Source: an uncultured Lachnospiraceae bacterium (GTDB lineage Bacteria > Bacillota > Clostridia > Lachnospirales > Lachnospiraceae). Taken from it: 64,000 nucleotides of DNA. Each line of letters starts with the position of its first letter. The stretch's first letter is position 1. The notes beneath the pieces were generated by a model. That model was given only the letters and a program-made list of their open reading frames with translations. It had not been told where the DNA came from and ran no database searches. Of this stretch, positions 1,136 through 40,493 are shown piece after piece. The DNA lies in the NCBI GenBank assembly GCA_947626915.1, contig CANQUA010000001.1, positions 62,001 through 126,000 of the forward strand. The letters are read 5' to 3'. The position numbers and the translations under genes are program-made.

Positions 1136-7397
<6,262 letters not shown>

Positions 7398-7415
7398 AAG
7401 GAGCGGAAAAGAAAA

Positions 7416-8594: not shown

Positions 8595-8632
8595 AACAGG
8601 ACTGACTTGCGTAGACAGAAGGAGATTACAAT

Positions 8633-11508: not shown

Positions 11509-11525
11509 GTTCGGAGGATTCGGAT

Positions 11526-14345: not shown

Positions 14346-14374
14346 CAGCGTTTTCAGAGGGAAGGAGGATACGG

Positions 14375-23053: not shown

Positions 23054-24655
23054 ATGAAAAAATCAATCAAACAGTTGAGCTCCATTGCCCTTGCGGCGGC
23101 GATGGTAGGCAGCCTGGCAGCATGCGGCGGCGGCGGTGATACCACGACGACGACGGCAGCGGCCGGTACGACGGCAGCGGCGACGACTGCGGCAGCAGCA
23201 GCCGATACGACTGCGGCGGCGACGACTGCGGCAGCAGCAGCCGATACGACTGCGGCGGCAGCTGATACGACTGCGGCGGCCGAGACCACGGAAGCGGCTC
23301 CTCAGTATGACTTCGGGGGGGCGACCGTACGTATCAGCGGCGGTTACTTCGGAGATCTGAACGAGGATAACAAGGACAACCCCAGCTACACCACGAAGTG
23401 GGATGTCGCGCATCAGGTAGAAGAGAAGTACAACATTAAATTCCAGTACACCAAGCTGGAAGGCGACGACGGCTACACCACCATGGATGCGATTCTGGCT
23501 GGCATCACCAACGGCGAAGCGTATGCCGACATCTTCTGCCAGGGCGATGATATCGTTGTTGGTCTGCGTGATTATCTTGCCGACATCACGGCGGATGTAG
23601 ATCAGCTGCAGATGGGCTCCATCTATACGGAAGCCGGCACCTGGGCTGGCCATACCTACGGCTGGACCTATGATAACATGGGCAGCGTTTACGTTATGGT
23701 TTACAGCCGTGACTACCTCAAATCCATCGGTATGGACACGACCCCGACCGACCTGTTCCAGCAGGGCAAGTGGAGCTATGACGATGCGATCGAGTATCTG
23801 ACCGAGCTGAAGAGCAAACTGCCGGACGGCACCTATCCGATCGGCGTACATACCAACCACTGGGTATCCATGGCTCCCGCAGCCAACGGCGTGGTTTCCG
23901 TTGATTCCGACGGCAACATCCATATGGCTGACGAGGCTTACTGCTCCTCTCTGGACTTCTACAAGCAGCTGCTTCAGTTAGGTCTTGCATATCCGATCAC
24001 GGATGTTGAGATCGTAGACGGCGGCGGCATCTCCACCAACCAGACATACAGCCTGAGCACCCTGAGCGCGGTCGGCAACCCCGGCACCCATGTGATCTCC
24101 ATGGCAGAGGCCTGGCAGATGGAAGGTCTGCAGAGCAGCCTTGGCGAGTGGGGCATCGTTCCGTGGCCGTGGGATCCCAAGTACGTAACCTGCGACGGCG
24201 ACTACACGACCCTGAGTGAGAACTACAAGACGGCGCAGTCCATCTGGACCGACGTTCTGGTTCCGAAGGCAGAGTACCGTGCGGCTGACGCGAAGAACAT
24301 TCCGGACATCGTTCTTCATCTGATCGCGAAAGATTTCGTCGACCTGTGCAGCCCGACCGGCGCAGAGGGAAGATATAAGATGTGGGAAGCTGAGAGCAAG
24401 GGCGAAGAGTATGTGAACCTGGGCTACACGCCGGGCGATCCGGGCTCCTTCAGCACCGAGCAGGATATCGAGATCTACGACTGGCTGCACTCCAGAGTCG
24501 TCTGCGACTGGGGCCACTCCATGAACTCCAACGGCTATGTTATGGTGAACAGGAACGCCGCGTACGTAATCGCGAACGGCGACGATTCCAGATCCAGCGG
24601 CGAGTCCTTCACCGCTTCCGGCGACCAGGCCATGAAGGATCAGGGATTCAAATAA
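23054..24655 (+). CDS. Carbohydrate ABC transporter substrate-binding lipoprotein
   Basis: A 533-residue extracellular solute-binding protein of the family-1 type. It has a lipoprotein signal with lipobox LAAC (C24), a Thr/Ala-rich tether (about 30-82), then a binding domain starting at TVRISGGYFG. It would capture oligosaccharides at the outer membrane-free surface for the permeases downstream. The gene is first in the cluster, directly behind a strong promoter, and is followed by a hairpin that probably limits read-through so that more binding protein than permease is made. The exact ligand is not readable; host-glycan oligosaccharides are inferred from neighbours. Confidence 0.87.
   Translation: MKKSIKQLSSIALAAAMVGSLAACGGGGDTTTTTAAAGTTAAATTAAAAADTTAAATTAAAAADTTAAAADTTAAAETTEAAPQYDFGGATVRISGGYFGDLNEDNKDNPSYTTKWDVAHQVEEKYNIKFQYTKLEGDDGYTTMDAILAGITNGEAYADIFCQGDDIVVGLRDYLADITADVDQLQMGSIYTEAGTWAGHTYGWTYDNMGSVYVMVYSRDYLKSIGMDTTPTDLFQQGKWSYDDAIEYLTELKSKLPDGTYPIGVHTNHWVSMAPAANGVVSVDSDGNIHMADEAYCSSLDFYKQLLQLGLAYPITDVEIVDGGGISTNQTYSLSTLSAVGNPGTHVISMAEAWQMEGLQSSLGEWGIVPWPWDPKYVTCDGDYTTLSENYKTAQSIWTDVLVPKAEYRAADAKNIPDIVLHLIAKDFVDLCSPTGAEGRYKMWEAESKGEEYVNLGYTPGDPGSFSTEQDIEIYDWLHSRVVCDWGHSMNSNGYVMVNRNAAYVIANGDDSRSSGESFTASGDQAMKDQGFK
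23178..23255 (+). repeat. Two 39-bp tandem repeats in the binding-protein tether
   Basis: A 39-bp unit (13 codons, Ala/Thr with one Asp) occurs twice in tandem, followed by a partial copy. It lengthens the flexible tether between lipid anchor and binding domain. Confidence 0.8.
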
Positions 24656-24700
24656 ATCCTTAGAGTGACACGCAATACTGCATCTTTAATCTTAATCTCA

Positions 24701-24746
24701 ATATGTGGCTGCGGATTCTACGGCGAGTAGGGCCGTAGCCACATAT
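24701..24746 (+). terminator. Intercistronic hairpin, likely attenuator or mRNA stabiliser
   Basis: A 14-bp stem with one G-U pair (24701-24714 against 24733-24746) and an 18-nt loop lies between the binding-protein gene and the next cistron. It lacks a T run, so it is more likely a partial terminator or 3'-end protecting structure, as seen after malE-like genes, than a full stop. Confidence 0.6.
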
Positions 24747-24770
24747 ATTTAAAAAGAAAGGGTTAATGGC

Positions 24771-27716
24771 GTGAAAAAGAAAAAACAGCGTGCTCGCATT
24801 CGAAACATCTGTATCCTGGTCGCTCTGATCGTCGTGGCGGTCGTGGCGTTCAACCTGGCCTCCAGCGACGAATACGCACAGACCCGTGAGGATGTGCTGG
24901 CGAAAAACCTGAGTTATGAAGATTCATCCGAGGTCACCTACGAGGATTATATCGCGCTTCATCCGGGCGCGTATCCGTCCGCATCGGCGGGGACGGTCAC
25001 ACTGAAAGCCTCCGATTACGCGGAGACCGATATGGCCGGACTGACGCAGGACGGCGATGTCGTGTGGACCCAGGAGAATGGCTCCATTACTTATAAGTTT
25101 GACGTGGCAGAGGCCGGATTCTATCATATCCGGCTCACCTATTATCCGGACACTTCCGGGACACAGACCATACTGAGAGATGTGTATCTGAATGGCGAGA
25201 TACCGTTCGATGACTGTGAAGATCTGATCATCGCCCGTCTGTGGGTCGATGACAACAAAAACTGGCTGATGAATACCTCCGGCAACCAGGCGGCTCCCAC
25301 CCAGGTGCAGAGCGCGGGACCGGGCACAGCCTATATCGAGTCGGACGAGTGCGATACTCTGGGCAGCTATATGTTCTATCTGAACCAGGGCAGCAACACT
25401 CTGACCCTTGCCTCCAAGCAGGCGGTCCTTGGGCTTAGCGAGATCGATCTGGAGCCGGCGGCAGCGCTTCCGAGCTACAGCGAATACTACGCATCCGCCA
25501 AGGAAAAAGCGCCGCAGCTTTCCAGCGGCGATCTGACAGACGGCGCCATCGTCGTCCAGGCAGAGGACGCTTCCCTGAAATCCAGCTCCTCTCTCTCCGC
25601 AAACAACGACCGTACTTCCGTAGCGACTCAGCCTTATCATCCCTCTTATATCGTTTACAATACGATCGGCGGCGACAGCTGGGCTACGGCCGGGCAGAGG
25701 ATCAGCTGGACCGTGAACGCGCCCAAAGCCGGACTTTACAAGATCGGCGTGCGTTTCAAACAGTATCTGAACCGTGGTTTCTATTCCGCGAGATATCTGA
25801 CCGTCAACGGCCAGCTTCCGTTTAAAGAGGCTGCGCAGATCGACTTCTATTATGGTCCCGACTGGCAGATCGGTTATCTGGGCGGAGACGACGGCGACTA
25901 TTATTTCTACCTGGATCAGGGCGACAATACCATTTCCCTGACGGCGACGCTGGGCGATCTGGCGGACGCGGTGGATATGGCCAGCGTGAGCGTGGATAAT
26001 CTGAACGTACTTTACCGTGAACTGACAGCCGTAACCGGCACGGATCCGGACGAGTACCGTGATTATCAGATCCTGACCTATGTTCCCAATATTGCGGAAG
26101 TTCTGGAGAAAGAGTACACCCGTCTGAACGCGGTCGTAGAGGCGTTCGGCGAGACCATGGACTCCGCCAACAAGACCTCCCCCGTTGTGGACATGATGAA
26201 CGCGATGGTCAAGCTGATCAAAAAGCCTGACGACGTGGCCAAGTATCTGGGCGACTTCAACGACGCGCTTTCCGCACTGGCCGAGTGGCTGACCAGCGTG
26301 AACAACGTTCCGCTGGAACTGGATTACCTGCTGGTGACCGGCGACGGCTACAAGCTGCCGAAGGCAGAAGGCGGTTTCTTCGCGGGAATCGCGCATAACT
26401 GGAACGCGTTTATCGGATCGTTTACCAACGATTTCCAGGTACATTCCGAAGGCGAGTCGAAGGACAAGAAGACCTTGACCGTATGGGTGGCCGTAGACGC
26501 GAGAGCGCAGTACGATATCATCCAGAAGATGGTCACCGCCAGCTTTGCCGATTCTCCTTACAATGTGAATATCAACATGGTCGGCGGCGACACGGTTCTG
26601 CCCGCTACGGTAGCAGGCTCCGGCCCCGACGTGGTGCTCCAGTCCAGCTACAGCACGCCGGTCAACTTCGCGTACCGCAACGCGGCCCTGGACCTGACTC
26701 AGTTTGCTGATTTCGAAGAAGTTTTCAAACGGTTCCCGGCCGATACCAGGGCGTTTCTGCAGTATGAGGGCGGCGTATACGGACTGCCGGATCAGCTCAC
26801 GTTCCCGGTGACGATCTACCGCAAGGACATCTTTGAGGACAAGGGTCTGGAAGTGCCGGAAACCTGGGAGGATCTGATTTCGATCATCCCGTATCTGGAG
26901 GCCGACAATATGACCGTGTACCTGGGCAGCAACGAGTACACGACGCTGGGCGGCGGCACCAGCTCCACGACGGTGCCTGTGAACAGCATCTTCCTTTCCA
27001 TGCTGTACCAGAACGGCTATGAGCTCTACAACGACGATTTTACCGCCACGAACATGGATCAGGTCGATCTGATGGAAGTCTTCAAGTACTGGACGGAATA
27101 TTATACGAAGCAGGGCCTGAATTACTCGGTCAACTTCGTGACCCGTTTCCGTACCGGCGAGATTCCGCTGGCGGTCGTAGATTACAACTCCTATGTCAAC
27201 CAGCTGAACGTATCCGCTCCGGAGATCTCCGGCAAGTGGTCCATCGCCAGAATGCCCGGCACTCTGAAAGCGGACGGCACCGTGGATCATACGGCGGCCT
27301 GCATGATCAGCACCAGCTTCATCGTTTCCACGACGGTTGCGAAAGACGGTATGACCAATGAGGCGTGGGATTTCCTGAAATGGTGGACCAGTGCAGAGAC
27401 TCAGGCGAATTACGCGACGGAGCTGAAGGCGGAGAACGGCGAAGCTTCCGAGTTCCCGGTGGCGAACATGGACGCGATCGCCAACGGCGGCCTGAACCAG
27501 GAGTTTAAGCAGGTAGTGCTTTCGCTGCTCGGCGACCTTCGTGCGGAGCCGCAGGTTCCCGGCGGTTATATCACCGGCCGTGTGCTGCGCAATGCGTTCA
27601 CGACTGTGGTAACTGATAACGTGGATCCGGTGGATACGCTGTATATTCAGCTGGATGAGATCAATGCAGAGATCACCAGCAAGCGCACCGAGTTCGGCCT
27701 GAACACGAGAGAGTAG
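24771..27716 (+). CDS. Membrane-anchored solute-binding protein with two carbohydrate-binding modules
   Basis: A 981-residue composite protein. A Lys/Arg-rich start and one membrane segment (about 13-30) anchor it outside the cell. Two beta-sandwich modules of CBM6/CBM35 type follow (about 55-230 and 258-420; GIVVQAED-like and AGLYKIGVRF-like motifs), then a helical spacer (430-510), then a complete family-1 solute-binding domain (about 555-980, beginning TLTVWVAVDARAQYD). The start is GTG 24771 after AAAGGG; an ATG five bases earlier stops at once. This fusion of lectin-like modules with a binding domain is far longer than a normal binding protein (about 450-550). It lies 10 bp before the permease gene. 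Confidence 0.8.
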   Translation: MKKKKQRARIRNICILVALIVVAVVAFNLASSDEYAQTREDVLAKNLSYEDSSEVTYEDYIALHPGAYPSASAGTVTLKASDYAETDMAGLTQDGDVVWTQENGSITYKFDVAEAGFYHIRLTYYPDTSGTQTILRDVYLNGEIPFDDCEDLIIARLWVDDNKNWLMNTSGNQAAPTQVQSAGPGTAYIESDECDTLGSYMFYLNQGSNTLTLASKQAVLGLSEIDLEPAAALPSYSEYYASAKEKAPQLSSGDLTDGAIVVQAEDASLKSSSSLSANNDRTSVATQPYHPSYIVYNTIGGDSWATAGQRISWTVNAPKAGLYKIGVRFKQYLNRGFYSARYLTVNGQLPFKEAAQIDFYYGPDWQIGYLGGDDGDYYFYLDQGDNTISLTATLGDLADAVDMASVSVDNLNVLYRELTAVTGTDPDEYRDYQILTYVPNIAEVLEKEYTRLNAVVEAFGETMDSANKTSPVVDMMNAMVKLIKKPDDVAKYLGDFNDALSALAEWLTSVNNVPLELDYLLVTGDGYKLPKAEGGFFAGIAHNWNAFIGSFTNDFQVHSEGESKDKKTLTVWVAVDARAQYDIIQKMVTASFADSPYNVNINMVGGDTVLPATVAGSGPDVVLQSSYSTPVNFAYRNAALDLTQFADFEEVFKRFPADTRAFLQYEGGVYGLPDQLTFPVTIYRKDIFEDKGLEVPETWEDLISIIPYLEADNMTVYLGSNEYTTLGGGTSSTTVPVNSIFLSMLYQNGYELYNDDFTATNMDQVDLMEVFKYWTEYYTKQGLNYSVNFVTRFRTGEIPLAVVDYNSYVNQLNVSAPEISGKWSIARMPGTLKADGTVDHTAACMISTSFIVSTTVAKDGMTNEAWDFLKWWTSAETQANYATELKAENGEASEFPVANMDAIANGGLNQEFKQVVLSLLGDLRAEPQVPGGYITGRVLRNAFTTVVTDNVDPVDTLYIQLDEINAEITSKRTEFGLNTRE

Positions 27717-27726
27717 GAGGGATCCC

Positions 27727-28656
27727 ATGGCGTCTAATAAAATGTCTTTGAATCGAAGGGTGCATTTGACCCTCAGGGATATGAAGCGCAGCATTCCCCT
27801 GTATCTCATGATCGCTCCCTTTATGATCTTGTTTTTTGTGTTCGTTGTGTACCCGGTCCTGACGGCGATCTGGTACAGCTTTACGGATTTCAACGTATTG
27901 GAGAAAGCGAACTTCGTGGGACTGACGAACTATAAGAAGCTGTTTTTGGATGACAGCATCTTCATTACCGCCATCAAGAATACGCTGATCATCGCGGTTA
28001 TCGTAGGACCCGGCGGCTACATCATGTCATTTTTGCTGGCCTGGATGATCAACGAGCTGCCCCACAAGCTGGGCGTTGTGCTGACCGTGATCTTCTACGC
28101 GCCGAGTATGGCAGGCAGCGCGGTTCTGTCCGTGTTCCAGCAGATCTTCTCCAACGACAGCAACGGTTATCTGAACGCTTTCCTGCAGAACCTGGGGATC
28201 ATCAGCGAGCCGATCCTCTGGCTCTCGGATTCGGATTACGTAATGATCGTAGTCGTGCTGGCATCCCTGTGGACCAGCATGGGCGTAGGCTTCCTTTCGT
28301 TCGTCGCCGGTATTAAAGGCGTGGACGACGCGCAGTACGAGGCGGGCGCCATCGACGGCATCAAGAACCGCTGGCAGGAGCTGTGGTACATCACGCTTCC
28401 CAACATGAAGCCGCAGCTGATGTTCGGCGCGGTCATGGCGATCACCAGCTCCCTCTCCGTCGGCAGCGTCGGCGACGGCCTGGTCGGTTTCCCGAGCCCG
28501 AACTATGCGACCCATACGATCTACAACCACCTGATGGACTACGGTTCCATCCGCATGGAGATGGGATACGCGTCAGCGATCGCTTTCCTGCTTTTCCTGT
28601 TGATGATTGCCGCGAACATGCTGATCCAGAAGCTGCTTCGCAAGGTTGGCACGTGA
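27727..28656 (+). CDS. Sugar ABC permease, MalF/UgpA-like (pair 1)
   Basis: A 309-residue inner-membrane permease with six predicted membrane segments and the EAA loop that docks the ATPase (E205, YEAGAIDGIKNRWQELW). It pairs with the MalG-like protein encoded next. Membership in the carbohydrate CUT1 family is supported by the paired gene order and by upstream binding proteins. No ATPase gene is in the window, so a shared MsmK/UgpC-type ATPase encoded elsewhere is expected. Confidence 0.9.
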   Translation: MASNKMSLNRRVHLTLRDMKRSIPLYLMIAPFMILFFVFVVYPVLTAIWYSFTDFNVLEKANFVGLTNYKKLFLDDSIFITAIKNTLIIAVIVGPGGYIMSFLLAWMINELPHKLGVVLTVIFYAPSMAGSAVLSVFQQIFSNDSNGYLNAFLQNLGIISEPILWLSDSDYVMIVVVLASLWTSMGVGFLSFVAGIKGVDDAQYEAGAIDGIKNRWQELWYITLPNMKPQLMFGAVMAITSSLSVGSVGDGLVGFPSPNYATHTIYNHLMDYGSIRMEMGYASAIAFLLFLLMIAANMLIQKLLRKVGT

Positions 28657-28677
28657 TGGGTGAAAGGAGAAGTGACT

Positions 28678-29607
28678 ATGGATATCATTACTAAAATCAG
28701 AACGAATTACCAGAAAAAGAAGAAATCCAAGCTCGATTTCGCCCCTTCGGTCAAGAAGTCGGAGCGGAGCTTCTGGGGGAACGTGCTCCTCGGGCTGTTC
28801 CTGCTGGCAATGGGCTTTGCGTTCTTCTTCCCGGTAATTTTTATGCTGAGCCAGTCCTTAAAGCCGATGAACGAGATGTTCATCTTCCCGCCCAGGATTT
28901 TGGTGAGGAACCCGACGTTCAACAACTACCGCGACTTCGTGAACGTCCTGGCCAACACGGTGGTTCCCGTGACCCGGTCGCTGTATAACTCCCTGTTCGT
29001 CGTGGTGGTAGGTTCGATCGGCCATATCGTGATCGCGTCTTTGTGCGCGTTCCCGCTGGCAAAATTCAAGTTCCCCGGCTCCGCGTTCTTCAATCAGCTG
29101 ATCGTATATTCGCTGATGTTCAACGGCGCGGTAACGATGATCCCGAACTTCCTGACCATCGCGCATCTGGGCTTTCTGGATACGCAGTGGGCGATCATCA
29201 TCCCGGGCTTCGCTTCCACGCTGGGTCTGTACCTGATGAAGAACTTCATGGAGCAGATTCCGGACAGCCTGACGGAGGCGGCTCAGATCGACGGCGCGGG
29301 GTATCTCCGCATCCATTTTACGATCGTTATGCCGGTGGTAAAACCGGCGCTGGTAACGGCATTTATCATGGTGTTCCAGAGCTTCTGGACCAATACGGGC
29401 GCCAGCTTCATCTATGCGGAGGCTGAGAAAGGCTTCGCTTACGTGGTAGGCCAGCTGGCCAGCGGCAACGTCGCCGGCGTAGGCGCTTCCTATAAAGGTA
29501 TTTCGTCCGCATCTTCGGTGATCATGTTTGCCGTACCGCTTATCGTGTTCCTGATTATGCAGAACAACGTGGTATCTACGATGGCAACATCCGGCATGAA
29601 AGAATAA
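28678..29607 (+). CDS. Sugar ABC permease, MalG/UgpE-like (pair 1)
   Basis: A 309-residue permease with six membrane segments and the EAA motif TEAAQIDGAGYLRIHF (E200). I choose ATG 28678, seven bases after AAAGGAGA; a GTG at 28660 would leave the ribosome site inside the gene. It is 21 bp after its MalF-like partner and 10 bp before the YIP1-domain gene, in one operon. Confidence 0.9.
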   Translation: MDIITKIRTNYQKKKKSKLDFAPSVKKSERSFWGNVLLGLFLLAMGFAFFFPVIFMLSQSLKPMNEMFIFPPRILVRNPTFNNYRDFVNVLANTVVPVTRSLYNSLFVVVVGSIGHIVIASLCAFPLAKFKFPGSAFFNQLIVYSLMFNGAVTMIPNFLTIAHLGFLDTQWAIIIPGFASTLGLYLMKNFMEQIPDSLTEAAQIDGAGYLRIHFTIVMPVVKPALVTAFIMVFQSFWTNTGASFIYAEAEKGFAYVVGQLASGNVAGVGASYKGISSASSVIMFAVPLIVFLIMQNNVVSTMATSGMKE

Positions 29608-29617
29608 GAGGTGGCGT

Positions 29618-31690
29618 ATGCAGAGATCTGTTAAGATTAAGAGAAAGTGCGCGGCAGCGCTTGCTCTTGTATTAAGTGCCATCCTTGGATTTGGCACGGT
29701 GTCCTACGCGGCAGATACCTATTCCTATGACATCTGGGGCAATATTGTCGAGGCTCCGGTGGCGTACGAACTGGAACAGACCATCTATGGCGCGGATCTG
29801 GGACTCAGTTCCATGGCTTCCGCATCTGCCGTATTCTATCGGAATGATAAGCTGTACCTGGCTCTGAACGGTTATATTGTCATTACCGATAAAAATTTTG
29901 AGAATGCAAGCTATATTACGGAGTACACAAGAGAAGACGGTACGGTGAGTACCATCAAAGCCCCCACCGGCATTTTCGTCACAGAGGACGAGCACATCTA
30001 CATCTGCGAGAAGGACCAGGGGGAGATCATCGAGTTCGATGAAAAAGGCCAGTATGTACGCGCCATCGGCGACCCCCACTGCATCGGTCTGACGACGACC
30101 TATCGTCCGAAGCGCCTGGTGGTGGACAGCGTGGGACGTATCTACGTGCTGGTTGAGAACTGCTACGAGGGCTTCGCCGAGCTGGATCCGGAAGGCAACT
30201 TCAACCGCTATGTAGGCGCGACGGAAGTCACCTATTCGGCCATCGACCTGATATGGAGACAGCTGGCGACGGAAGAGCAGCTGGCCCGAAGCGAGCTGTG
30301 GCTGCCGACTTCCTACAGCGATCTGGCCATCGACCAGGACGGCTTCATTTTTGCCAGCGTGGCGGATTCCACGACGGAGAAGCCGATCAAGAAGCTGAAC
30401 TCCTCCGGTAAGGACGTTATGCCGGAGCACGATTTCGTCAATCCTCCCATCGGCGACTACGACGGCACGACCTCTCTGTCGAACCTGGTCAGCATCGCGG
30501 TGGCGGACGACGGACGGTTTGCGGTTCTGGATTCCAACTATTCCAGACTTTTCGTCTACAGCAGCGACGGCTATCTGCTCTATGAGCTGGGCGGCAGCGG
30601 CAACAAGCAGGGACTTTTAAGCTCTCCGTCCACGTTCTGCTTCATGGACGACAAGATCGTGGTCGTGGACATCGTGTTCCAGACCCTGGAGGTATTCGCC
30701 CCCACGACTTACGGCTCCCTGATCAATTCCGCGCTGGAAGCGCAGTCCAAATACGACTACGAGACGGCGGCCGGTTACTGGGAGCAGGTGCTGGACATCA
30801 ACAACAACTTCTACTACGCGAACCTGGGCCTGGGCAAGTACCAGATGCGTACGGGAGAGTATGACAAGGCCCTCGACAACTTCTACAAGGGCGCGGACCG
30901 TTCGTACTATTCCAGCGCGTACCAGCAGGTGAGCGGCGCGTGGATGGACAGCCACTTCAGCCTGGTGGTCGGAGTGATCGCGGCGATCATTATCCTGCTC
31001 GTCGCATGGACCATCTACAAGAAACACCGTCCGGAGCCGAAAGACACGAAGCTGCGCCGGGCGTGGGAGAAATTCAAATTCACGGTATTCAAATGGCCGC
31101 TCTACGTGCTGTCGAGCCCGTTCAAGGCCTTTGACGACGTGAAGTATTACGACGACGGCTCCCTGGCATTTTCCATCGTCGTCATCATCCTGTACGGCTG
31201 GATCGCATTGATCAAGTACAGGTACACGGGCTTTTTGGTCAGCTTCGTGGATATCGAGCATGTCAACGTGCCGATGATCGTGGGCAGCGCGATCCTTCCC
31301 TATGTGGCCTTTATCGCAGGCAACTGGGCGGTGGGCGTGCTCATGTCCGGCAAAGGCAAAGCGGTGCATTTGACCAAGGTCGTCGGATACGCGCTGTACC
31401 CGTCGCTCTGGCTGAACCTGCTGGGCACGATTTTGTCCAATTTCGTCAGCCTGAACGAGGCCGCGCTCGTAAGCGCCCTGTTCGTATTCGCTTACGTGCT
31501 GTTCTTCTTCTATCTGTTTATTGGTACGCTGATGGTGAACCAGTACACATTCACGAAGAACGTGGGTACGCTTCTGTTATCCGTCGTGGCCCTGCTGATC
31601 ATCTGCTTCGTAGCAATGCTGTTTGCAACGCTTCTCGGACAGTTTGTCAACGACTGGGTACAGATTGTCAGAGAGTTCATGATGCTGTAG
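29618..31690 (+). CDS. NHL-propeller / TPR / YIP1-domain membrane protein
   Basis: A 690-residue protein with a signal peptide (cleavage near VSYA-AD, residue 31), an extracellular NHL-type beta-propeller (about 40-370; repeated TGIFVTEDEHIYIC, VSIAVADDGRFAVL patterns), a short TPR-like segment (about 372-440), a membrane helix (about 447-466), a basic linker and a C-terminal YIP1-like domain with about five membrane helices. YIP1-family proteins in bacteria have no established role. Position between two permease pairs suggests a transporter accessory, perhaps a receptor or assembly factor. I recall such genes beside DUF5696 and sugar permeases in Firmicutes, but could not verify that here. 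Confidence 0.75.
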   Translation: MQRSVKIKRKCAAALALVLSAILGFGTVSYAADTYSYDIWGNIVEAPVAYELEQTIYGADLGLSSMASASAVFYRNDKLYLALNGYIVITDKNFENASYITEYTREDGTVSTIKAPTGIFVTEDEHIYICEKDQGEIIEFDEKGQYVRAIGDPHCIGLTTTYRPKRLVVDSVGRIYVLVENCYEGFAELDPEGNFNRYVGATEVTYSAIDLIWRQLATEEQLARSELWLPTSYSDLAIDQDGFIFASVADSTTEKPIKKLNSSGKDVMPEHDFVNPPIGDYDGTTSLSNLVSIAVADDGRFAVLDSNYSRLFVYSSDGYLLYELGGSGNKQGLLSSPSTFCFMDDKIVVVDIVFQTLEVFAPTTYGSLINSALEAQSKYDYETAAGYWEQVLDINNNFYYANLGLGKYQMRTGEYDKALDNFYKGADRSYYSSAYQQVSGAWMDSHFSLVVGVIAAIIILLVAWTIYKKHRPEPKDTKLRRAWEKFKFTVFKWPLYVLSSPFKAFDDVKYYDDGSLAFSIVVIILYGWIALIKYRYTGFLVSFVDIEHVNVPMIVGSAILPYVAFIAGNWAVGVLMSGKGKAVHLTKVVGYALYPSLWLNLLGTILSNFVSLNEAALVSALFVFAYVLFFFYLFIGTLMVNQYTFTKNVGTLLLSVVALLIICFVAMLFATLLGQFVNDWVQIVREFMML

Positions 31691-31706
31691 AAAGGAGGCG
31701 CAGAGA

Positions 31707-34295
31707 ATGAGAAAATTAGGAGTTTTATCCCTTGGTTTGGGAACCGTTCTTGGCCTTTCCCTTCTGTTTGGCTTCGCTCCCCAGAACGAAGTGAAAGCGG
31801 ATGAGTCGTCATCCGGGGAGACGGGGAGCTACTGGGAGACCCAGCAGTATGAAAACTTAAGCGGCGATGAATTTATCAAAGTGGGAGAGAGCGCGAAGAT
31901 GCAGCTTCTCCTGAACCCCGCGACCGGCACCATCCGCTGGCTGGAGACGGCGACCGGTATCTATCAGGATACCAACATGGCGAAAGACGAGGGCCTGGCC
32001 GGCGCTCTGTCCAACGCCGAGCAGTCCGACATGATCGTCCGCTATTTCTCCGGCTCCAAAAACGCCAACAAGCTGTACTGGTCCACCAGCACGTACGATT
32101 CCTACAGCATGTGCGCGAGCCTGGGACAGCTGTCCTACCAGCTTCTGGACAACGGCGTCCGCATCGTCTACGCGCTGGGCGACGACAGCGTAACGTACAA
32201 AAACTTCCCGACCCGGCTTTCCGACGAGAGGATGCAGGAGTACGTGATGCAGTACTTAACCGACGCCCAGAAAGAGAGCATGTTGAAATTCTATACGCAG
32301 ATTTCGTCCGGCGACTGGATCCGCGGCTTCGGCGGCGGCGAGGGCGGCGCGCAGAACCGTCTGGGCTCCCTGGCCATGAAACAGGTTTATCAGATGTTCT
32401 ACGAGGACGGCCATTATACCGACGAACTGCTGTATGAAGATCTGGAGACATGGGAAGTGGAATCGGATCAATATCCGAGCAACTTAAAGATCTACATCCC
32501 GGTCGAGTATTATCTGGACGGCGACGAGCTGGTCGTCAATATGGATACCTCGATGATCGAGGAGACCGGCGGGGTCAACCCGATCAACAACATCCAGCTT
32601 CTGCCGTACTTCCTGAATTCCAGCTCCACGGCGGACGCGGAAGAGGGATATATGTTTGTTCCCGACGGGAGCGGCGCCCTGATCTATCTGGACAGCACCA
32701 AGACGAAAGAGTACCATTTCCAGGGCAGCTACTACGGCGGCGATAAACTGGTGGGTTCCAAGACCTACAACGGCATCGACAACCGGATGCGCCTGCCGGT
32801 CCTGGGCATGAAGACGGCCGAGCATACGATCTTCGGAGTGATTGAAAACGGCGCTGAGATCGCGACGCTGGACGCTTACATCAGCGGCACCGACAATTCG
32901 GAGCCGTTCAGCAAGATGAAGCTCAGCTTTGAGATCCAGGCGCAGCAGATCATGGCGACCGGCGCTTCCTCCAGCAGCGGCGACTTCAGCCTTTACAAAG
33001 CCAGCGACGACGTCTACGACGACGACATTACGCTGCGGTATTTCTGGCTGGGCAAGGGCGCGGGCTATGTGCAGATGGCCCAGTGCTACACCGATTATCT
33101 GGAGGCCAACGGCACCCTGACCGAGAAAGCGAAAGAGGAGGATCCGCCGTTCTTCGTAGAGTTTTTGGGCGCGACCGACAAGACCCTGTATTTCCTGGGG
33201 ATCCCGTATGACGGCACCCAGTCCCTGACCACATTCAAGCAGGCGCAGCAAATCCTGCAGGATGTGACCGCCCAGGGCGTCAAGAACGTAAAAGTGATCT
33301 ACAGCGGCGTCGCCAACGGAGGCATCAACCAGAGGTCGCTGCAGGACGGCGTCAAGTACGCTCCGGGATTGGGCGGCAGCAGCGATTTCAAGGCGCTGAA
33401 AGCCTATGCGGATTCCGTGGGCGCGACGATCTTCCCGAACCTGCTGCTGCAGACCGCCAACACGAAGGCGAAGCTCTCCAACGAGACCGTGGCCTGGAAC
33501 ATCATCAATGAGAGGGCGCAGATCTACAAGTTCGACCATATCAAGCACCAGATCGATGCGGAAGACGAGTTCCCGCTCTTCATCATCAATCCGAACGCGC
33601 TGAGCTCCTACCTGCTGAACGCGAAGAATACGTTCTCCAAGCAGTTCGGGCTGACCACGATGGCTTCCGAGGACCTGTTTACCTTTATCCCCACCAACTA
33701 CGGCGAGGGCCAGGTCTCTCCGTCTACCGGAGAGGAGATGCTCGATTCGGCGGTATCGCAGTTTGCGGACGGCATGACGCTGATGCTTTCCAATCCGACC
33801 GTAGACGGCTATAAATACGCCAGCTACATCATGGACGTGCCGGTAGAGAACAGCGGTATGCGTGTACTGGACGCTTCGATCCCGTTCATGGGCATGGTCC
33901 TGGACGGCCATATCCAGTATTCCGCAGAGAGTTCCAACCGCGAGAGCACGGACGTGTTCCTGAACATCATGCACGCGATCGAGAGCAACGCGCAGCCGAA
34001 GTTCTCCCTGATGTATGAGAACAGTTCCCTGCTGACCGGCACGGAGCAGGAGCATTATTTCGCGGTCGATTACAGCTACTGGAAGGATCAGATCGGGTTC
34101 TATTACAACGAATACCGGAACTTCTACGATAAGACGAAGGATGCGAAGATCGTGGACCATGAGATCGTGGACCGCAACGACAAGCTCCGCGTAGTGACCT
34201 ACTCCAACGGCGTTAAGGCGTATTTCAACTACAGCGACCTTGACGAAGTGCTCGACGGAGTGACGGTGCCTGCGTTCTCTTATCTGGTACAGTAA
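31707..34295 (+). CDS. Secreted DUF5696-type protein
   Basis: An 862-residue exported protein with a signal peptide (hydrophobic 4-24, possible cleavage after VKA, residue 31). The N-terminal half (about 45-450) is beta-rich, like glycosidase super-sandwich domains; the second half (about 465-800) has alternating strand-helix patterns (VKNVKVIYSGVANGG, ATIFPNLLLQT) that look like a TIM barrel. The resemblance to the large endo-glycosidase architecture is my inference; catalytic carboxylates are not assigned. It lies 16 bp after the YIP1 gene and 13 bp before a permease gene, so it is a built-in part of the import system, either a surface hydrolase or a glycan-capturing subunit. Confidence 0.7.
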   Translation: MRKLGVLSLGLGTVLGLSLLFGFAPQNEVKADESSSGETGSYWETQQYENLSGDEFIKVGESAKMQLLLNPATGTIRWLETATGIYQDTNMAKDEGLAGALSNAEQSDMIVRYFSGSKNANKLYWSTSTYDSYSMCASLGQLSYQLLDNGVRIVYALGDDSVTYKNFPTRLSDERMQEYVMQYLTDAQKESMLKFYTQISSGDWIRGFGGGEGGAQNRLGSLAMKQVYQMFYEDGHYTDELLYEDLETWEVESDQYPSNLKIYIPVEYYLDGDELVVNMDTSMIEETGGVNPINNIQLLPYFLNSSSTADAEEGYMFVPDGSGALIYLDSTKTKEYHFQGSYYGGDKLVGSKTYNGIDNRMRLPVLGMKTAEHTIFGVIENGAEIATLDAYISGTDNSEPFSKMKLSFEIQAQQIMATGASSSSGDFSLYKASDDVYDDDITLRYFWLGKGAGYVQMAQCYTDYLEANGTLTEKAKEEDPPFFVEFLGATDKTLYFLGIPYDGTQSLTTFKQAQQILQDVTAQGVKNVKVIYSGVANGGINQRSLQDGVKYAPGLGGSSDFKALKAYADSVGATIFPNLLLQTANTKAKLSNETVAWNIINERAQIYKFDHIKHQIDAEDEFPLFIINPNALSSYLLNAKNTFSKQFGLTTMASEDLFTFIPTNYGEGQVSPSTGEEMLDSAVSQFADGMTLMLSNPTVDGYKYASYIMDVPVENSGMRVLDASIPFMGMVLDGHIQYSAESSNRESTDVFLNIMHAIESNAQPKFSLMYENSSLLTGTEQEHYFAVDYSYWKDQIGFYYNEYRNFYDKTKDAKIVDHEIVDRNDKLRVVTYSNGVKAYFNYSDLDEVLDGVTVPAFSYLVQ

Positions 34296-34308
34296 AGGAG
34301 GAGTTAAG

Positions 34309-35262
34309 ATGAGTAAAGAAAAGAAAAAGTCAGGAAATGCGTCGGCTCTCTCCTGGTATAAGAAAATGGACTTCTCCAAAAAGACGGCGATGTGGGGTAT
34401 CATTTTCCTGCTTCCGTGGCTGTTTGGTCTGATCTTCTTTTTCTTACGGCCCATGGTAAACACCCTGTGGTACTCGCTGTGCAGCATGCAGCTGGTCAAC
34501 GGCAAGTTTCAGGGGACCTTTATCGGAACCGAGAACTACAAATGGGTGATCGGCGTCAATACCAACTTCAACCGGATGTTCGTAGAGGCGTTCACCAATA
34601 TGGTCAAGGAAGTGCCGTTCCAGATCTTCCTGGCGCTGTTCATCGCGATCCTGCTGAACGGCGAATACAAGGGCAGAGGCTTCTTCCGCGCGATCTTCGT
34701 GATCCCGATCATCCTGGCGACCGGCGTGGCTTCCCCGACCCTTTCCTCCGCTGAGGCGCAGTTCGCGACGGAGACGGCGGAAGCGGTCATGGATATGAAA
34801 TGGCTGGAGGAGCTGGTCATCAATTCCGGTATTCCGGAACAGCTGACCACATTGCTGGTGACCTATGTGGAGAATATCTTCGACGTAGTAACGACCTGCG
34901 GCGTACAGGTGCTTCTGTTCCTGGCCGGCCTGCAGGCCATCTCCCCGTCTCTTTACGAGGTGGCGAAGATGGAAGGCTGCACGCAGTTTGAGACGTTCTG
35001 CAAGATCACGCTGCCGATGGTCTCCCCGACCATCCTGGTCTGCCTGGTCTACAGCATCGCCGAGTCCTTCGCCAACGCGCAGGTAACCAACGGCGATTCG
35101 ACGATTGCGTTCTCCAGCTACATCCGCAGCATTACGTTTAACGGCAACGCCGCCTATTACGGCTACGGCGCGGCCATGAGCTTTATCTACTTTGCAGGAA
35201 CTCTGGTAGCGATCGGCGTGATCTGCGGCATCGTCTCGAAGGGGGTGTTCTACTATGACTAA
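34309..35262 (+). CDS. Sugar ABC permease, MalF-like (pair 2)
   Basis: A 317-residue permease with about six membrane segments; the EAA loop is present in a modified form (YEVAKMEGCTQFETFCKITLP, E217), with Val-Ala-Lys instead of Ala-Ala-Ile. It is not a recent copy of the pair-1 MalF-like protein. The gene overlaps the next by eight bases, so the two products are probably made in equal amounts. Confidence 0.88.
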   Translation: MSKEKKKSGNASALSWYKKMDFSKKTAMWGIIFLLPWLFGLIFFFLRPMVNTLWYSLCSMQLVNGKFQGTFIGTENYKWVIGVNTNFNRMFVEAFTNMVKEVPFQIFLALFIAILLNGEYKGRGFFRAIFVIPIILATGVASPTLSSAEAQFATETAEAVMDMKWLEELVINSGIPEQLTTLLVTYVENIFDVVTTCGVQVLLFLAGLQAISPSLYEVAKMEGCTQFETFCKITLPMVSPTILVCLVYSIAESFANAQVTNGDSTIAFSSYIRSITFNGNAAYYGYGAAMSFIYFAGTLVAIGVICGIVSKGVFYYD

Positions 35263-36331
35263 AAAAGGAATGACCAGAAAAGAGAGACTTGCGAAAGCGG
35301 AGACAACTGCCGGCATCAGCTTCTGGGTAGACTTAAAGAAAGGCCGTCTGAGCAAGTATTATATCCAGAAGATCATCCGGAACTTCATCATGTCCCTGTT
35401 CCGCTATGTGATCCTGATCTGCCTGGGCTTCATCGTCATCAAGCCGCTGTGGACACTGCTGAAGAATGCGATCACGTCCCCGACGATGCTGGGCGACAAA
35501 TCCCTGATGTGGATCCCCCAGGAGGTATCGAGGATCTTCATCGACATGTCGATGTCCAAGAACCTGATGAACTACTGGTCCAGCCTGCTTTACACCCTGC
35601 CGACGACGCTGATTCTGACGGTCCTGCAGGTGATTTCGGCCGGCCTCGCGTCCTACGCGTTCGCCAGACTGAAATTCAAGGGAAGCAACATCCTGTTCTT
35701 CTTCGTGATCCTGACCATCGTCGTTCCCGGCGATTCGATCATGCTGGCGCAGTATGCTGCGTTCCGTAACTTTGATATCCTGGGCATCATCGGCCTGGTG
35801 AACGGAACCGGTTCGGGTATCAACCTGATCGGCAATCCGGCCTCCCTCTATATCCTGGCAGGAACCGGGATGGGCTTAAAGAGCGGCCTGTATATCTACT
35901 TCCTGCGCCAGGCGGTCCGCGGTCTTCCGATCTCGGTCGAAGAGGCGGCGTTCGTGGACGGCGCCGGATTCCTCCGCACGTTCTTCACGATCGTGCTTCC
36001 GAGTATGTCCGGTTCGATCCTGACGGTGTCGGTTCTGAGTTTCCTCTGGAACTACACGGATACCTACTACACCAGCCTGCTGAACCCGACCACCAGCCAT
36101 CTGGCCTACAACCTGTCTTCGCTGTCCGGCAACATCCGCTGGTACATCACCACGGCGGCCCAGACGAAACCGGAGTGGGTGACGACCATCGACGCGACCA
36201 ACCCGTTCGTGCAGCAGGCCATGATTTCCGCCTGCTCCCTGCTGACGGTGCTGCCGCTGCTGATCATGTACGCGTTTGTTCAGAAGCGGTTCGTCCAGGG
36301 CGCTGCTCGAAGCGGTCTCGGCGGAGATTGA
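35255..36331 (+). CDS. Sugar ABC permease, MalG-like (pair 2)
   Basis: A 358-residue permease with an N-terminal cytoplasmic extension of about 45 residues compared with pair 1, about six membrane segments and the EAA loop EEAAFVDGAGFLRTFF (E229-E230). Its start overlaps the end of the MalF-like gene. It closes the import cluster; a hairpin follows at 36357. Confidence 0.88.
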   Translation: MTKKGMTRKERLAKAETTAGISFWVDLKKGRLSKYYIQKIIRNFIMSLFRYVILICLGFIVIKPLWTLLKNAITSPTMLGDKSLMWIPQEVSRIFIDMSMSKNLMNYWSSLLYTLPTTLILTVLQVISAGLASYAFARLKFKGSNILFFFVILTIVVPGDSIMLAQYAAFRNFDILGIIGLVNGTGSGINLIGNPASLYILAGTGMGLKSGLYIYFLRQAVRGLPISVEEAAFVDGAGFLRTFFTIVLPSMSGSILTVSVLSFLWNYTDTYYTSLLNPTTSHLAYNLSSLSGNIRWYITTAAQTKPEWVTTIDATNPFVQQAMISACSLLTVLPLLIMYAFVQKRFVQGAARSGLGGD

Positions 36332-37831: not shown

Positions 37832-37924
37832 CTGTCCCGGGTGTGCCGGCGGCGGGACGATGAAAGAGTGCCGCTGTTATATGCAGGATTGCAGGAGCTG
37901 TCCCGGGCGCGACGGCGGCGGGAC
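37832..37924 (+). repeat. Two 27-bp direct repeats with 66-bp period, each containing an inverted repeat
   Basis: Copies at 37832-37858 and 37898-37924 match at 24 of 27 positions. Each begins CTGTCCCGGG and ends GGCGGGAC, so each can fold by pairing GTCCCG with CGGGAC. They lie between the second fucosidase and GH3 genes. Confidence 0.75.
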
Positions 37925-37937
37925 AGGCAGCGGTTTA

Positions 37938-37973
37938 AACGGCCGGCAGGAAAATAACGGCCGGCAGGAAAAT
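37938..37973 (+). repeat. Perfect 18-bp tandem duplication
   Basis: An 18-bp unit (37938-37955) is repeated exactly (37956-37973) in the leader of the GH3 gene. A small hairpin, GTTCCGT/ACGGAAC (37979-38004), follows immediately and abuts the ribosome site. Confidence 0.85.
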
Positions 37974-38015
37974 AAAAGGTTCCGTTCGGTTTCCGGCACG
38001 GAACGAGGGAGGCAT

Positions 38016-40163
38016 ATGGAACTTACAGAGAATAAAGAGCTTCTGGAACAGTACCGGGAGCGGGCGAAAAAACTGGTGGAGCAGATGAGCCTGGAGGAGA
38101 AGGTGTTCCAGACTTTGTATAATGCTCCGGCCGTCGAGCGGCTGGGCGTCAAGGCTTACAACTGGTGGAACGAGGCGCTGCACGGGGTCGCCCGGGCCGG
38201 GGTGGCCACGGTCTTCCCGCAGGCCATCGGTCTCGCGGCGACCTTTGACGAGGATCTGGTCGAGGAGGTGGCCGACGCCATTTCCACGGAGGCCAGGGGC
38301 AAATTCAATCTCCAGCAGGCGAAAGAGGACACGGATATCTATAAGGGACTGACGTTCTGGTCGCCCAACGTGAATATTTTCCGCGACCCGCGGTGGGGCC
38401 GGGGTCACGAGACCTTCGGCGAGGATCCTTACTTGACTTCGCGGATGGGCGTGCGCTTCATCCGGGGGCTCCAGGGGCACGACGAGAAATACCTGAAGGC
38501 CGCGGCCTGCGCCAAGCATCTGGCGGTTCACAGCGGACCGGAGGCCATCCGCCACAGCTTCGACGCCGTCGTCAGCAAACAGGATCTCTACGAGACCTAT
38601 CTGGCCGCGTTCAAGGCGTGTATCCAGGAAGGACATGTGGAAGCGGTGATGGGGGCCTACAACCGTCTGAACGGGGTGCCTTGCTGCGCCAATGAAGAAT
38701 TGGTGGAGAAGATCGTCCGGGACGAGTTCGGTTTCGAGGGCCATATGGTCAGCGACTGCGGCGCGGTCCAGGACATCCGCGACGGCCACCATGTGGCGGC
38801 GACATTTAAGGAAGCGGCGGCCATGGCCATGAAAAACGGCTGCGATCTGAACTGTGGGAAGATGTTCTACTTCCTGAAGCAGGCGGCCGAGGACGGGTTG
38901 GTGTCGGAGGAGCGGATCAGTGAGGCGGTAGAGCGGCTGTTTACCACCCGGATCAAGCTGGGCGTGCTGGACCGGAAAGAGGAGAACCCCTACGACCGGA
39001 TCCCGTATTCGGTGGTGGACAGCGAGCCGATGCGGAAGCTGAATGAGGAAGCGGCCGCCCGCTGCGTGGTGCTTCTGAAAAATGACGGGCTGCTGCCGCT
39101 GGAGCTTTCTTCCATTCAGACCATCGGCGTCATCGGCCCCAACGCGGACAGCCGCCGGGCGCTGGCAGGCAATTATGAAGGGACTGCGTCCCATTACTGG
39201 ACGGTTCTGGAAGGGATCCAGGATTATGTCGGGGACCGGGCCAGGGTCATGTATTCGGAGGGCTGCCACCTCTATAAGGACCGTACCACCGGATTGGCGT
39301 ACGCCAATGACCGGCTCAGCGAGGTGAAGGGCGTCTGCGAGAACAGCGACGTGGTCGTGGTCTGCCTGGGTCTGGACGCCAGCATCGAGGGAGAAGAAGG
39401 CGACGCCAACAATGAATACGGCAGCGGCGACAAGCCGGACCTGAACCTGCCGGGGATCCAGCAGCAGATCCTGGAAGCGGCTTATGCAAGCGGCAAGCCG
39501 GTGATTCTGGTGCTTCTGTCCGGCAGCGCGCTGGCGGTGGACTGGGCCCAGGAGCATGTGCCGGCGATCCTGCAGGGCTGGTATCCGGGGGCCTGCGGCG
39601 GCAAAGCCATCGCAAAAATCCTTTTTGGCGAGCGCTGTCCCGAAGGAAAACTGCCGGTGACGTTTTACCATAAGGATGAGAAGCTGCCGGATTTCACGGA
39701 TTACAGCATGAAAGGCCGGACCTACCGCTATATGAAAGGCGAGGCTTTGTATCCCTTTGGCTACGGACTGTCGTATACGCGGTTCGCGTACGAAAACGTC
39801 CGCATCGAGAAACCGTCCGAAGACGGCGAGGACGGCCGCTTTGTGACGGCGCGCGCCCTGGTTAGGAACGTGGGAACGGCGGCCGGAGCGGAGACGGTTC
39901 AGGTTTACGTGAAGATCCCGGGGGAGGATACGCCCAACGCGCAGCTGAAGGGTCTGCGCAAGGTGCGTCTGGAGCCGGGCGAGGCGCGGGAAGTGGAGAT
40001 CGCGCTTCCCAAAGAGGCGTTCGGGCTCTATGACGAAGATGGACGATTTGGCATCTGCGAGGGAAACGCGCTGGTTTATGTCGGCGGGCACGGGCCGGAC
40101 GCGCGGTCGGCGGCGCTGACAGGACAGGAGGTCTGCTGTCTGGAAGTTGCAGTCGGAGAGTGA
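38016..40163 (+). CDS. Beta-glucosidase/beta-xylosidase-type enzyme, GH3
   Basis: A 715-residue retaining GH3 glycosidase: barrel domain with KAYNWWNEALHG, RDPRWGRGHETFGEDP and the nucleophile motif MVSDCGAVQD (D247), an alpha/beta sandwich domain (VIGPNADSRR), and a C-terminal fibronectin-III-like domain. I start at ATG 38016, just behind GAGGGAGG, instead of an in-frame ATG at 37860 that would read through the duplicated leader DNA. The SDCGA context resembles GH3 xylosidases and beta-glucosidases rather than NagZ. No signal peptide is seen. Its substrate in this locus is unclear, since N-glycans do not need a GH3 of this type. Confidence 0.85.
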   Translation: MELTENKELLEQYRERAKKLVEQMSLEEKVFQTLYNAPAVERLGVKAYNWWNEALHGVARAGVATVFPQAIGLAATFDEDLVEEVADAISTEARGKFNLQQAKEDTDIYKGLTFWSPNVNIFRDPRWGRGHETFGEDPYLTSRMGVRFIRGLQGHDEKYLKAAACAKHLAVHSGPEAIRHSFDAVVSKQDLYETYLAAFKACIQEGHVEAVMGAYNRLNGVPCCANEELVEKIVRDEFGFEGHMVSDCGAVQDIRDGHHVAATFKEAAAMAMKNGCDLNCGKMFYFLKQAAEDGLVSEERISEAVERLFTTRIKLGVLDRKEENPYDRIPYSVVDSEPMRKLNEEAAARCVVLLKNDGLLPLELSSIQTIGVIGPNADSRRALAGNYEGTASHYWTVLEGIQDYVGDRARVMYSEGCHLYKDRTTGLAYANDRLSEVKGVCENSDVVVVCLGLDASIEGEEGDANNEYGSGDKPDLNLPGIQQQILEAAYASGKPVILVLLSGSALAVDWAQEHVPAILQGWYPGACGGKAIAKILFGERCPEGKLPVTFYHKDEKLPDFTDYSMKGRTYRYMKGEALYPFGYGLSYTRFAYENVRIEKPSEDGEDGRFVTARALVRNVGTAAGAETVQVYVKIPGEDTPNAQLKGLRKVRLEPGEAREVEIALPKEAFGLYDEDGRFGICEGNALVYVGGHGPDARSAALTGQEVCCLEVAVGE

Positions 40164-40343
40164 GAGCGCAGAGCATACAGAGGGCGGCCGGAGACGTTGA
40201 CGTGGTAGGAGGTCTGCTGCCTGGGGGTTGCGGCCGGAGAGTGAGAGCGCAGAGAATACAGAGAGCGTGCGGCGGCGCTGACAGGACAGGAGGTCTGCTG
40301 CTTGGAAAGTGCAGTCGGACGGCGAGAATGTGCGGAGGGCATG
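40101..40343 (+). repeat. Three imperfect 81-bp tandem repeats spanning the end of the GH3 gene
   Basis: The element AGGAGGTCTGCTG recurs at 40126, 40207 and 40288, exactly 81 bp apart, and surrounding bases are conserved over about 243 bp. The first unit includes the last 20 codons and stop of the GH3 gene; the other two are noncoding. The gap 40164-40493 otherwise contains only the ribosome site GAGGAAAG for the next gene. Confidence 0.85.
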
Positions 40344-40493
40344 CGGCGGCCCGGACCGGCGTCAGGCGGATTATGGACGGCGTTTATCGGAAACGGAAGG
40401 ACGTTCCGGAAGGGCCTCCCTGACCGCCCGCTGCGTCTGCGGCCGGACCGCCGCAGGCAGGTGTTATCATAAAGGTGAGGAGGAAAGAAAACG

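Follow-up and report, generated by a model that had tools for sequence, protein, structure and literature searches.

An apparently undescribed eight-gene variant of the CUT1 importer is widely conserved in Bacillota

Why should an operon for a sugar importer encode two solute-binding proteins (SBPs), two permease pairs, an NHL/TPR/Yip1-like membrane protein and a secreted DUF5696 protein? This question is raised by positions 23054-36331 of a 64,000-nucleotide stretch of contig CANQUA010000001.1 (assembly GCA_947626915.1; hereafter the window) from an uncultured Lachnospiraceae bacterium. Listing of the open reading frames (ORFs) gave eight of them, all on the + strand and with the same coordinates as in an earlier, sequence-only reading (Table 1). 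The gaps of 8 to 21 bp reported there were not reproduced with the longest start codons, which give intergenic distances of 10, 3, 10, 16, 13, and -8 bp after the second gene, although they would fit other starts. Domains were assigned with Pfam and NCBIfam, and topology by simple hydropathy. The operon has the permease subunits with an EAA loop and the extracytoplasmic sugar-binding protein of a CUT1 importer, whereas in place of one SBP and one permease pair it has two pairs and two types of SBP (SBPa and SBPb) as a conserved set. We conclude that this set is a real, widely conserved, and apparently undescribed variant of the CUT1 importer. It probably represents one conserved glycan-uptake system of Bacillota, in which two cooperating CUT1-type importers share a surface apparatus; a role of the gene set in glycan uptake is likely, and cooperation of the two transporters is plausible.

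The distribution of the parts was examined in 398 genomes of the phylum, including the genome of the window. The DUF5696 profile (PF18952) matched 46 of them at E 1e-3, and 39 pass the cut-off; 37 genomes have strong matches (E < 1e-100) and nine have weak ones only. Two weak matches that were examined are a GH13 alpha-amylase (in G301, where a strong DUF5696 is also present) and a DUF6259 protein (G302). The same 37 of 398 genomes carry a strong DUF5696, a strong NHL-Yip1 protein, and the long SBPb, either full length or cut by a contig edge. At E 1e-10 the NHL-Yip1 profile matched 100 genomes, mostly through the NHL repeats alone, and strong matches (E < 1e-60) were obtained in the same 37 genomes and in G243, as a fragment located at one end of its 8.5-kb contig. 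The SBPb profile matched 45 genomes at E 1e-60, including the same 37 (the G103 copy is cut by a contig end).

The same association was seen around individual genes. In a first set of 60 loci (59 DUF5696 loci and the window), counted within 9 kb and on the same strand, the Yip1 gene was present in 59, and in the exception the DUF5696 gene begins at the contig end. PermC was found in 56, PermD in 55, SBPa in 44, SBPb in 42, PermB in 40, and PermA in 39 of the 60 loci, and the order was contiguous for YIP-D5696-PermC-PermD in 52 and for SBPb-PermA-PermB in 38. A named set comprised the best 80 of 577 relatives, mostly from Paenibacillus, plus Cohnella, Lederbergia, and metagenome-assembled genomes (MAGs) of Lachnospiraceae or other clostridia; since it overlaps the first set, the counts are not independent. 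All 80 named loci have the Yip1 gene. SBPb, PermA, PermB, PermC, PermD, and the Yip1 gene are all present in each of the 62 named loci with at least 8 kb before and at least 5 kb after, and SBPa in 61 of these. A chance neighbourhood is rejected by the 37 shared genomes, the 59 of 60 loci with Yip1, and the 62 of 62 complete loci. The sequence-only reading had proposed a survey of these neighbourhoods and would have been undermined by YIP1 and DUF5696 genes scattered without permeases; the same counts show that both genes are near-constant beside permeases.

The operon is composed of two blocks, which are separable. Block 1 is SBPb-PermA-PermB, and block 2 is NHL/Yip1-DUF5696-PermC-PermD, usually with SBPa. 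DUF5696 and SBPb are each encoded five times in the window genome, and in some lineages there are more DUF5696 than SBPb genes. Of 10 distinct DUF5696 genes in G062, three have block 1 alongside and seven do not; the corresponding numbers are three and five for the eight genes of G165, and three and five (L053 is cut by a contig end) for G135, with edge or partial matches on C101, C97, and C104 left out. Absence of block 1 here refers to the fetched stretch of up to 19.5 kb, and downstream of L220 the contig extends for about 2 kb. A free SBPb-PermA-PermB with no block 2 gene near occurs once in each of G062, G165, and G135 (L223, L229, L235) and also in G040 (L243). The free SBPb genes of the first three genomes form one starred group in a quick tree, and the flanking genes scanned at L223 (four) and L229 (two) encode M42 peptidases, patatins, a YqeH-like GTPase, and anaerobic ribonucleotide reductase, which are not glycan genes; the two scanned at L243 encode a GH32 protein and one without a Pfam match. 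A FastTree was computed for 68 DUF5696 proteins, of which 18 come from loci without block 1, 41 from loci with it, and nine from undecided loci. In it, loci lacking the block nest among those having it, with four label changes against a shuffled mean of 15.5, of which starred branches force only two. This tree has long branches, the window's among them, and L042, L044, L060, and L073 were also left out. Since its deep branches are linked, the eight-gene form is probably ancestral.

A block 1 SBPb is present in every one of the 37 genomes that carry block 2, which points to a partner that acts in trans, and the occurrence of five to seven block 2 copies without block 1 together with one free block 1 in three related genomes suggests that this partner is shared. 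We tentatively consider a more specific form of the proposal, in which SBPb-PermA-PermB is a shared core serving interchangeable, glycan-specific block 2 modules in trans, so that the two importers make one device with a surface role like that of SusCD (see below); this may be so, though the odds are somewhat against it. The two cooperating transporters suggested by the sequence-only reading have thus gained a basis in separable blocks that occur together in genomes, and cooperation itself is plausible. Alternatively, the blocks could be two independent CUT1 importers that are merely co-regulated, PermC-PermD taking up the main oligosaccharide and block 1 another product (e.g., a sugar released by DUF5696), with NHL-Yip1 as an accessory of one of them. 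Each pair indeed has a plausible binding protein of its own, each permease keeps the EAA-type motif, and the blocks are apart in some genomes. However, the blocks are almost invariably present together (in all 37 genomes and in all 62 loci with sufficient flanking sequence), and the neighbouring enzymes are so different that a common side product is hard to name, which makes independent importers rather unlikely.

Co-divergence of the parts is consistent with one conserved system. The 23 loci with all eight parts gave Pearson coefficients of 0.82-0.95 between pairwise distance matrices, the highest (0.95) being that of D5696 and YIP; by Spearman, SBPa was lowest (0.67-0.75). For 30 loci with seven parts, the ranges were 0.77-0.92 (Pearson) and 0.62-0.87 (Spearman). 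L064, which has an ordinary SBP, and L046, in which SBPb is cut by a contig end, were excluded from both comparisons, as were the near-copies L077, L079, L082, L086, and L090.

The binding proteins and permeases were assigned as follows. SBPa begins with a lipobox-like LAAC, and a repetitive Thr/Ala-rich linker of a kind able to vary in length lies behind the cysteine (approximately residues 30-80). The window copy has no Pfam match at E 0.001; the family profile, aligned from 34 of 46 listed SBPa genes, matches solved sugar-binding proteins, the best being the arabino-oligosaccharide-binding protein 6rjy (E 2.5e-50). In SBPb, an N-terminal transmembrane (TM) segment is followed by a CBM35-like region (carbohydrate-binding module, CBM), a linker that is probably helical, and a C-terminal SBP domain; hydropathy showed a single strong N-terminal hydrophobic segment, which is anchor-like. 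CBM_35 matched weakly in the window copy (E 0.0041) and in 8 of 34 family members. The SBPb profile matches the CBM region of cycloisomaltooligosaccharide glucanotransferase (3.5e-9), a designed coiled coil (6.9e-7), and the SBP Lin1841 (1.2e-29). Pfam and NCBIfam support all four permeases as being of the MalF/MalG or UgpA/UgpE kind; PermD is below the Pfam cut-off (21.2 vs 26.4 bits) and has MalG and UgpE NCBIfam matches. Since the EAA-type loop motif is kept in all four, both pairs look functional. Behind PermD, L046 (after 10400) and L051 (after 13000) carry five tandem SBPa-type genes, some cut by the stretch end, and L221 and L227 carry three each, an arrangement in which several binding proteins might supply a single permease pair.

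No ATPase gene is present inside the operon, as the sequence-only reading had pointed out. A search with NF008653, which we take to be UgpC, gave 88 matches in the window's own genome, and one of these, on a different contig from the operon (C10), exceeds the cut-off (488.6 vs 432 bits). The profile matched in all 14 control genomes and exceeded the cut-off in eight. An MsmX/UgpC-type ATPase, often unlinked in CUT1 systems, is therefore available at the gene level, so the absence holds as a description of gene content and was rejected as a sign of oddity. A 509-aa ORF with an ATP-binding cassette (ABC)-type ATPase domain at 44752-46281 on the - strand scores 101.8 bits against the same cut-off of 432; being far under it, this ORF is neither a UgpC-type ATPase nor part of the operon.

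We compared the operon with known importers as they are described in two papers. In Streptococcus pneumoniae, a plain CUT1 importer with one SBP and two permeases, NgtS-NgtP1-NgtP2, reportedly takes up N-glycan fragments, and the unlinked MsmK was suggested as its ATPase (PMC5215778); an unlinked ATPase is stated for the xyloglucan importer of Anaerocellum bescii (PMC12710961). On these descriptions, both systems resemble the operon in the kind of SBP and permease, in the lack of an operon ATPase, in an oligosaccharide cargo, and in having enzymes nearby. Unlike them, the operon has two permease pairs and two SBP kinds, and it adds a long, membrane-anchored, carbohydrate-binding SBP arm and the near-constant NHL-TPR-Yip1 and DUF5696 proteins. 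In the literature search, from which most subscription-journal papers were outside, no mention of 'DUF5696', no paper joining Yip1, 'polysaccharide utilization', and 'permease', and no description of the operon were found. SusCD-type uptake in Bacteroidota combines multi-protein capture of glycans at the surface with one import gate, a TonB-dependent porin, and inner processing. The operon works alike at most, since it has ABC importers instead of such a porin, and no TonB-dependent porin or SusD lid was matched among the eight operon proteins in Pfam at E 0.001.

The DUF5696 protein of the window matches PF18952 with 439 bits (cut-off 25.6; E 3.6e-131), and its closest relative among the matches listed is 97% identical and derives from a Lachnospiraceae MAG labelled 'Lapin'. 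A family profile aligned from 53 of the 60 loci matched the solved hydrolases 5opq (1.7e-12), 8rzg/8rzk (2.1e-11), and 5wzn (7.5e-8), which we take to be GH129 enzymes (5wzn, an alpha-N-acetylgalactosaminidase; 5opq, a 3,6-anhydro-D-galactosidase). The matches are weak but collinear over the N-terminal, barrel, and C-terminal parts. In contrast to this likeness, the second half of the barrel failed to align with the hydrolases even with a sub-profile of the barrel, and none of the 53 members matched Pfam GH129 (PF11308) at E 0.1, so that membership of GH129 itself was rejected. A genome search with PF11308 was uninformative because it found no match anywhere, controls included. On the profile matches, DUF5696 is a distant relative of GH129-type hydrolases. 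In L239 (857-2632), a weak match of the DUF5696 Pfam profile falls within the barrel of a GH13 alpha-amylase, which also hints at a TIM-barrel fold. The record of L119 is labelled Bacillus subtilis DE0224, but a short segment of its DUF5696 is almost the same as in Lederbergia galactosidilytica (L115), and its species assignment may therefore be mistaken.

D320, D346, and Y454 of the DUF5696 protein do not vary across the 80 named loci, and N744 and E759 are kept in 79 (one is truncated), including the nearest relatives of the window; in the 53-member alignment, these five residues are kept in 50, 49, 53, 53, and 52 members. At three further positions (W535, D664, R672), the residue is W, D, or R, respectively, in 60, 66, and 63 of the 80 named loci and in 50, 46, and 51 of the 53 aligned members. 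The window protein has V, N, and P there. All three residues are also absent in nine near relatives labelled Lachnospiraceae or Acetatifactor (L094-L099, L102, L103, L105), whereas L100, L101, L104, and L112 lack W535 and R672 and keep D664, and L133 and L155 have N at 664 and keep W535 and R672. This clade pattern suggests that catalysis was altered or lost and the scaffold kept. It could accordingly be argued that DUF5696 is an ordinary secreted hydrolase, decaying in the window to a pseudoenzyme, and that the other genes encode a standard importer plus one spare pair of permeases. The hydrolase structures matched by the family profile and the substitutions at 535, 664, and 672 agree with that view, which is nevertheless improbable in the face of the five residues conserved throughout the named loci and of five DUF5696 copies without internal stops in the window genome; it also leaves the NHL-Yip1 protein unexplained.

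The NHL-TPR-Yip1 protein consists, in this order, of a signal-like segment, an NHL propeller, a TPR-like stretch, a TM segment, and a Yip1-like TM bundle. Hydropathy placed hydrophobic segments at 448-466 and then four more up to 670. This arrangement, with a signal-like segment before and hydrophobic segments after, suggests that the propeller and TPR are probably outside the cell. Among 32 aligned fused members, NHL was matched in 32, Yip1 (PF04893) in 31, and TPR_16 in 20; the only member without a Yip1 match, at E 0.01, is the window copy. Many relatives encode the NHL-TPR and Yip1 parts in two adjacent genes, of about 490 and 210 aa, and since these are fused in others, the two parts are linked by fusion. 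NHL propellers and TPRs are interaction modules, and bacterial Yip1-type proteins are, to our knowledge, poorly understood. These properties would also suit proteins outside transport, and NHL-Yip1 and DUF5696 might be sensors, or cell-wall or membrane maintenance proteins, that track glycan supply, a role with which the loss of otherwise conserved DUF5696 residues in the window's clade is compatible. Such a role is very unlikely, however, given the contiguity of YIP-D5696-PermC-PermD in 52 of 60 loci, the fact that both proteins stay with PermC-PermD in modules without block 1, and the distant relationship of DUF5696 to glycoside hydrolases.

Taken as one uptake system with two cooperating importers, the operon could work in the following way. 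Block 2 would be the substrate-specific part, in which the lipoprotein SBPa hands the glycan to PermC-PermD. The DUF5696 protein, secreted and GH129-like, and the NHL/TPR propeller, tethered to the membrane through the Yip1 part, may act on the chain at the cell surface by binding, positioning, or trimming it, possibly as a complex. Block 1 would be the partner transporter, encoded beside block 2 or elsewhere and shared, and both permease pairs would be driven by an unlinked ATPase of the UgpC/MsmX type. The sequence-only reading had made the NHL/YIP1 and DUF5696 proteins parts of a large-oligosaccharide machine; their near-constant permease partners agree with this, and both proteins may take part in uptake, within one machine. 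If the proposal is correct, a widespread glycan-uptake route of Bacillota (37 of 398 sampled genomes) lies undescribed under names such as DUF5696 and YIP1. Two orphan families would gain a function, and the complexes for glycan uptake at the surface of Bacteroidota would have a counterpart in Gram-positive bacteria. Loss of one free-standing SBPb-PermA-PermB should then impair growth on several glycans at once, and gut and soil bacteria that take up intact complex glycans could be predicted more easily.

Several observations weigh against this proposal. When L064 and L046 are kept in the co-divergence analysis (25 loci), the between-block r falls to 0.49-0.75, and shared ancestry alone could give high co-divergence. 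L064 and L084, which have ordinary or fragmentary SBPs, are included in the 42 of 60 loci with SBPb, so that the long form is present in 40; the 'SBPb' of L064 is an ordinary SBP of 420 aa, and the PermA and PermB counts also include this locus. In G104 and G154, SBPb occurs beside a PermA fragment and without a strong DUF5696, the contigs being 3.8 and 4.3 kb long, and six genomes without a strong DUF5696 (G080, partial, and five of one family) match only the C-terminal SBP part of SBPb. Since the window DUF5696 lacks three mostly conserved residues, its enzymatic role there is doubtful. Moreover, the plain pneumococcal importer is reported to take up N-glycan fragments without extra parts, so a large cargo alone need not explain the extras (PMC5215778).

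The genes around the operon bear on its cargo (Table 1). The window glycosidases comprise GH38, GH2 (beta-galactosidase and mannosidase types), two GH20, GH18, two GH29, and one GH3, and they are probably cytosolic because they have no N-terminal hydrophobic segment. The set most likely fits a host-type complex glycan, which would be imported and dismantled in the cytosol by these GH38, GH2, GH20, GH18, GH29, and GH3 enzymes. The uptake of a 'large oligosaccharide' proposed in the sequence-only reading is made plausible by the same enzymes. Homologues of the window glycosidases were sought by tblastn at 20 loci from near relatives, several of them short contigs, and at least one was present at 9 of these loci. 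Three other DUF5696 copies in the window genome adjoin GH43 and araA (arabinose isomerase), GH32 and a LacI regulator, and GH30_2, respectively. At other loci, 96 of 151 candidate neighbour proteins were scanned, and the most frequent families include GH10 (5), GH42 (4), GH3 (3), and GH43 (3). The different enzymes beside different copies indicate that the device is general and the cargo local.

Table 1. Genes of the eight-gene operon and neighbouring genes in the window
Feature	Position	Strand	Basis
SBPa, lipoprotein-type solute-binding protein, 533 aa	23054..24655	+	ORF, N-terminus, family profile vs sugar-binding structures
SBPb, membrane-anchored long solute-binding protein, 981 aa	24771..27716	+	SBP_bac_8 at 608-883; TM 13-31; profile matches
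PermA, MalF/UgpA-type permease, EAA loop at 205	27727..28656	+	BPD_transp_1, UgpA-type NCBIfam, motif
PermB, MalG/UgpE-type permease, EAA loop at 206	28660..29607	+	Pfam, NCBIfam, motif
NHL-TPR-Yip1-like membrane protein, 690 aa	29618..31690	+	NHL Pfam match; family domains; hydrophobic segments
DUF5696 protein, 862 aa, N-terminal signal-like segment	31707..34295	+	PF18952 E 3.6e-131; profile matches to hydrolase structures
PermC, MalF/UgpA-type permease, EAA-type loop at 217	34309..35262	+	Pfam, NCBIfam, motif
PermD, MalG/UgpE-type permease, EAA loop at 230	35255..36331	+	NCBIfam; Pfam under cut-off; motif
GH20 gene directly upstream, no N-terminal hydrophobic segment	20908..22890	+	Pfam, hydropathy
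GH29 alpha-L-fucosidase directly downstream, no N-terminal hydrophobic segment	36531..37820	+	Pfam, hydropathy
GH3 and mannosidase-type GH2 genes	37860..43082	+	Domain scan
GH38, GH2 beta-galactosidase, GH20, GH18, transglutaminase-like, and fucosidase genes, no N-terminal hydrophobic segments	1136..15748	+	Domain scan, hydropathy

Two further genes of the window were noted. The gene at 18507-20555 encodes a BT_1020-like propeller and a sialidase-like CBM, and 6 of 20 close relatives have a homologue in the vicinity of the operon. Within the glycosidase cluster, a 939-aa transglutaminase-like protein without a signal-like segment is encoded at 11526-14345, with homologues near the operon in 4 of 20 relatives.

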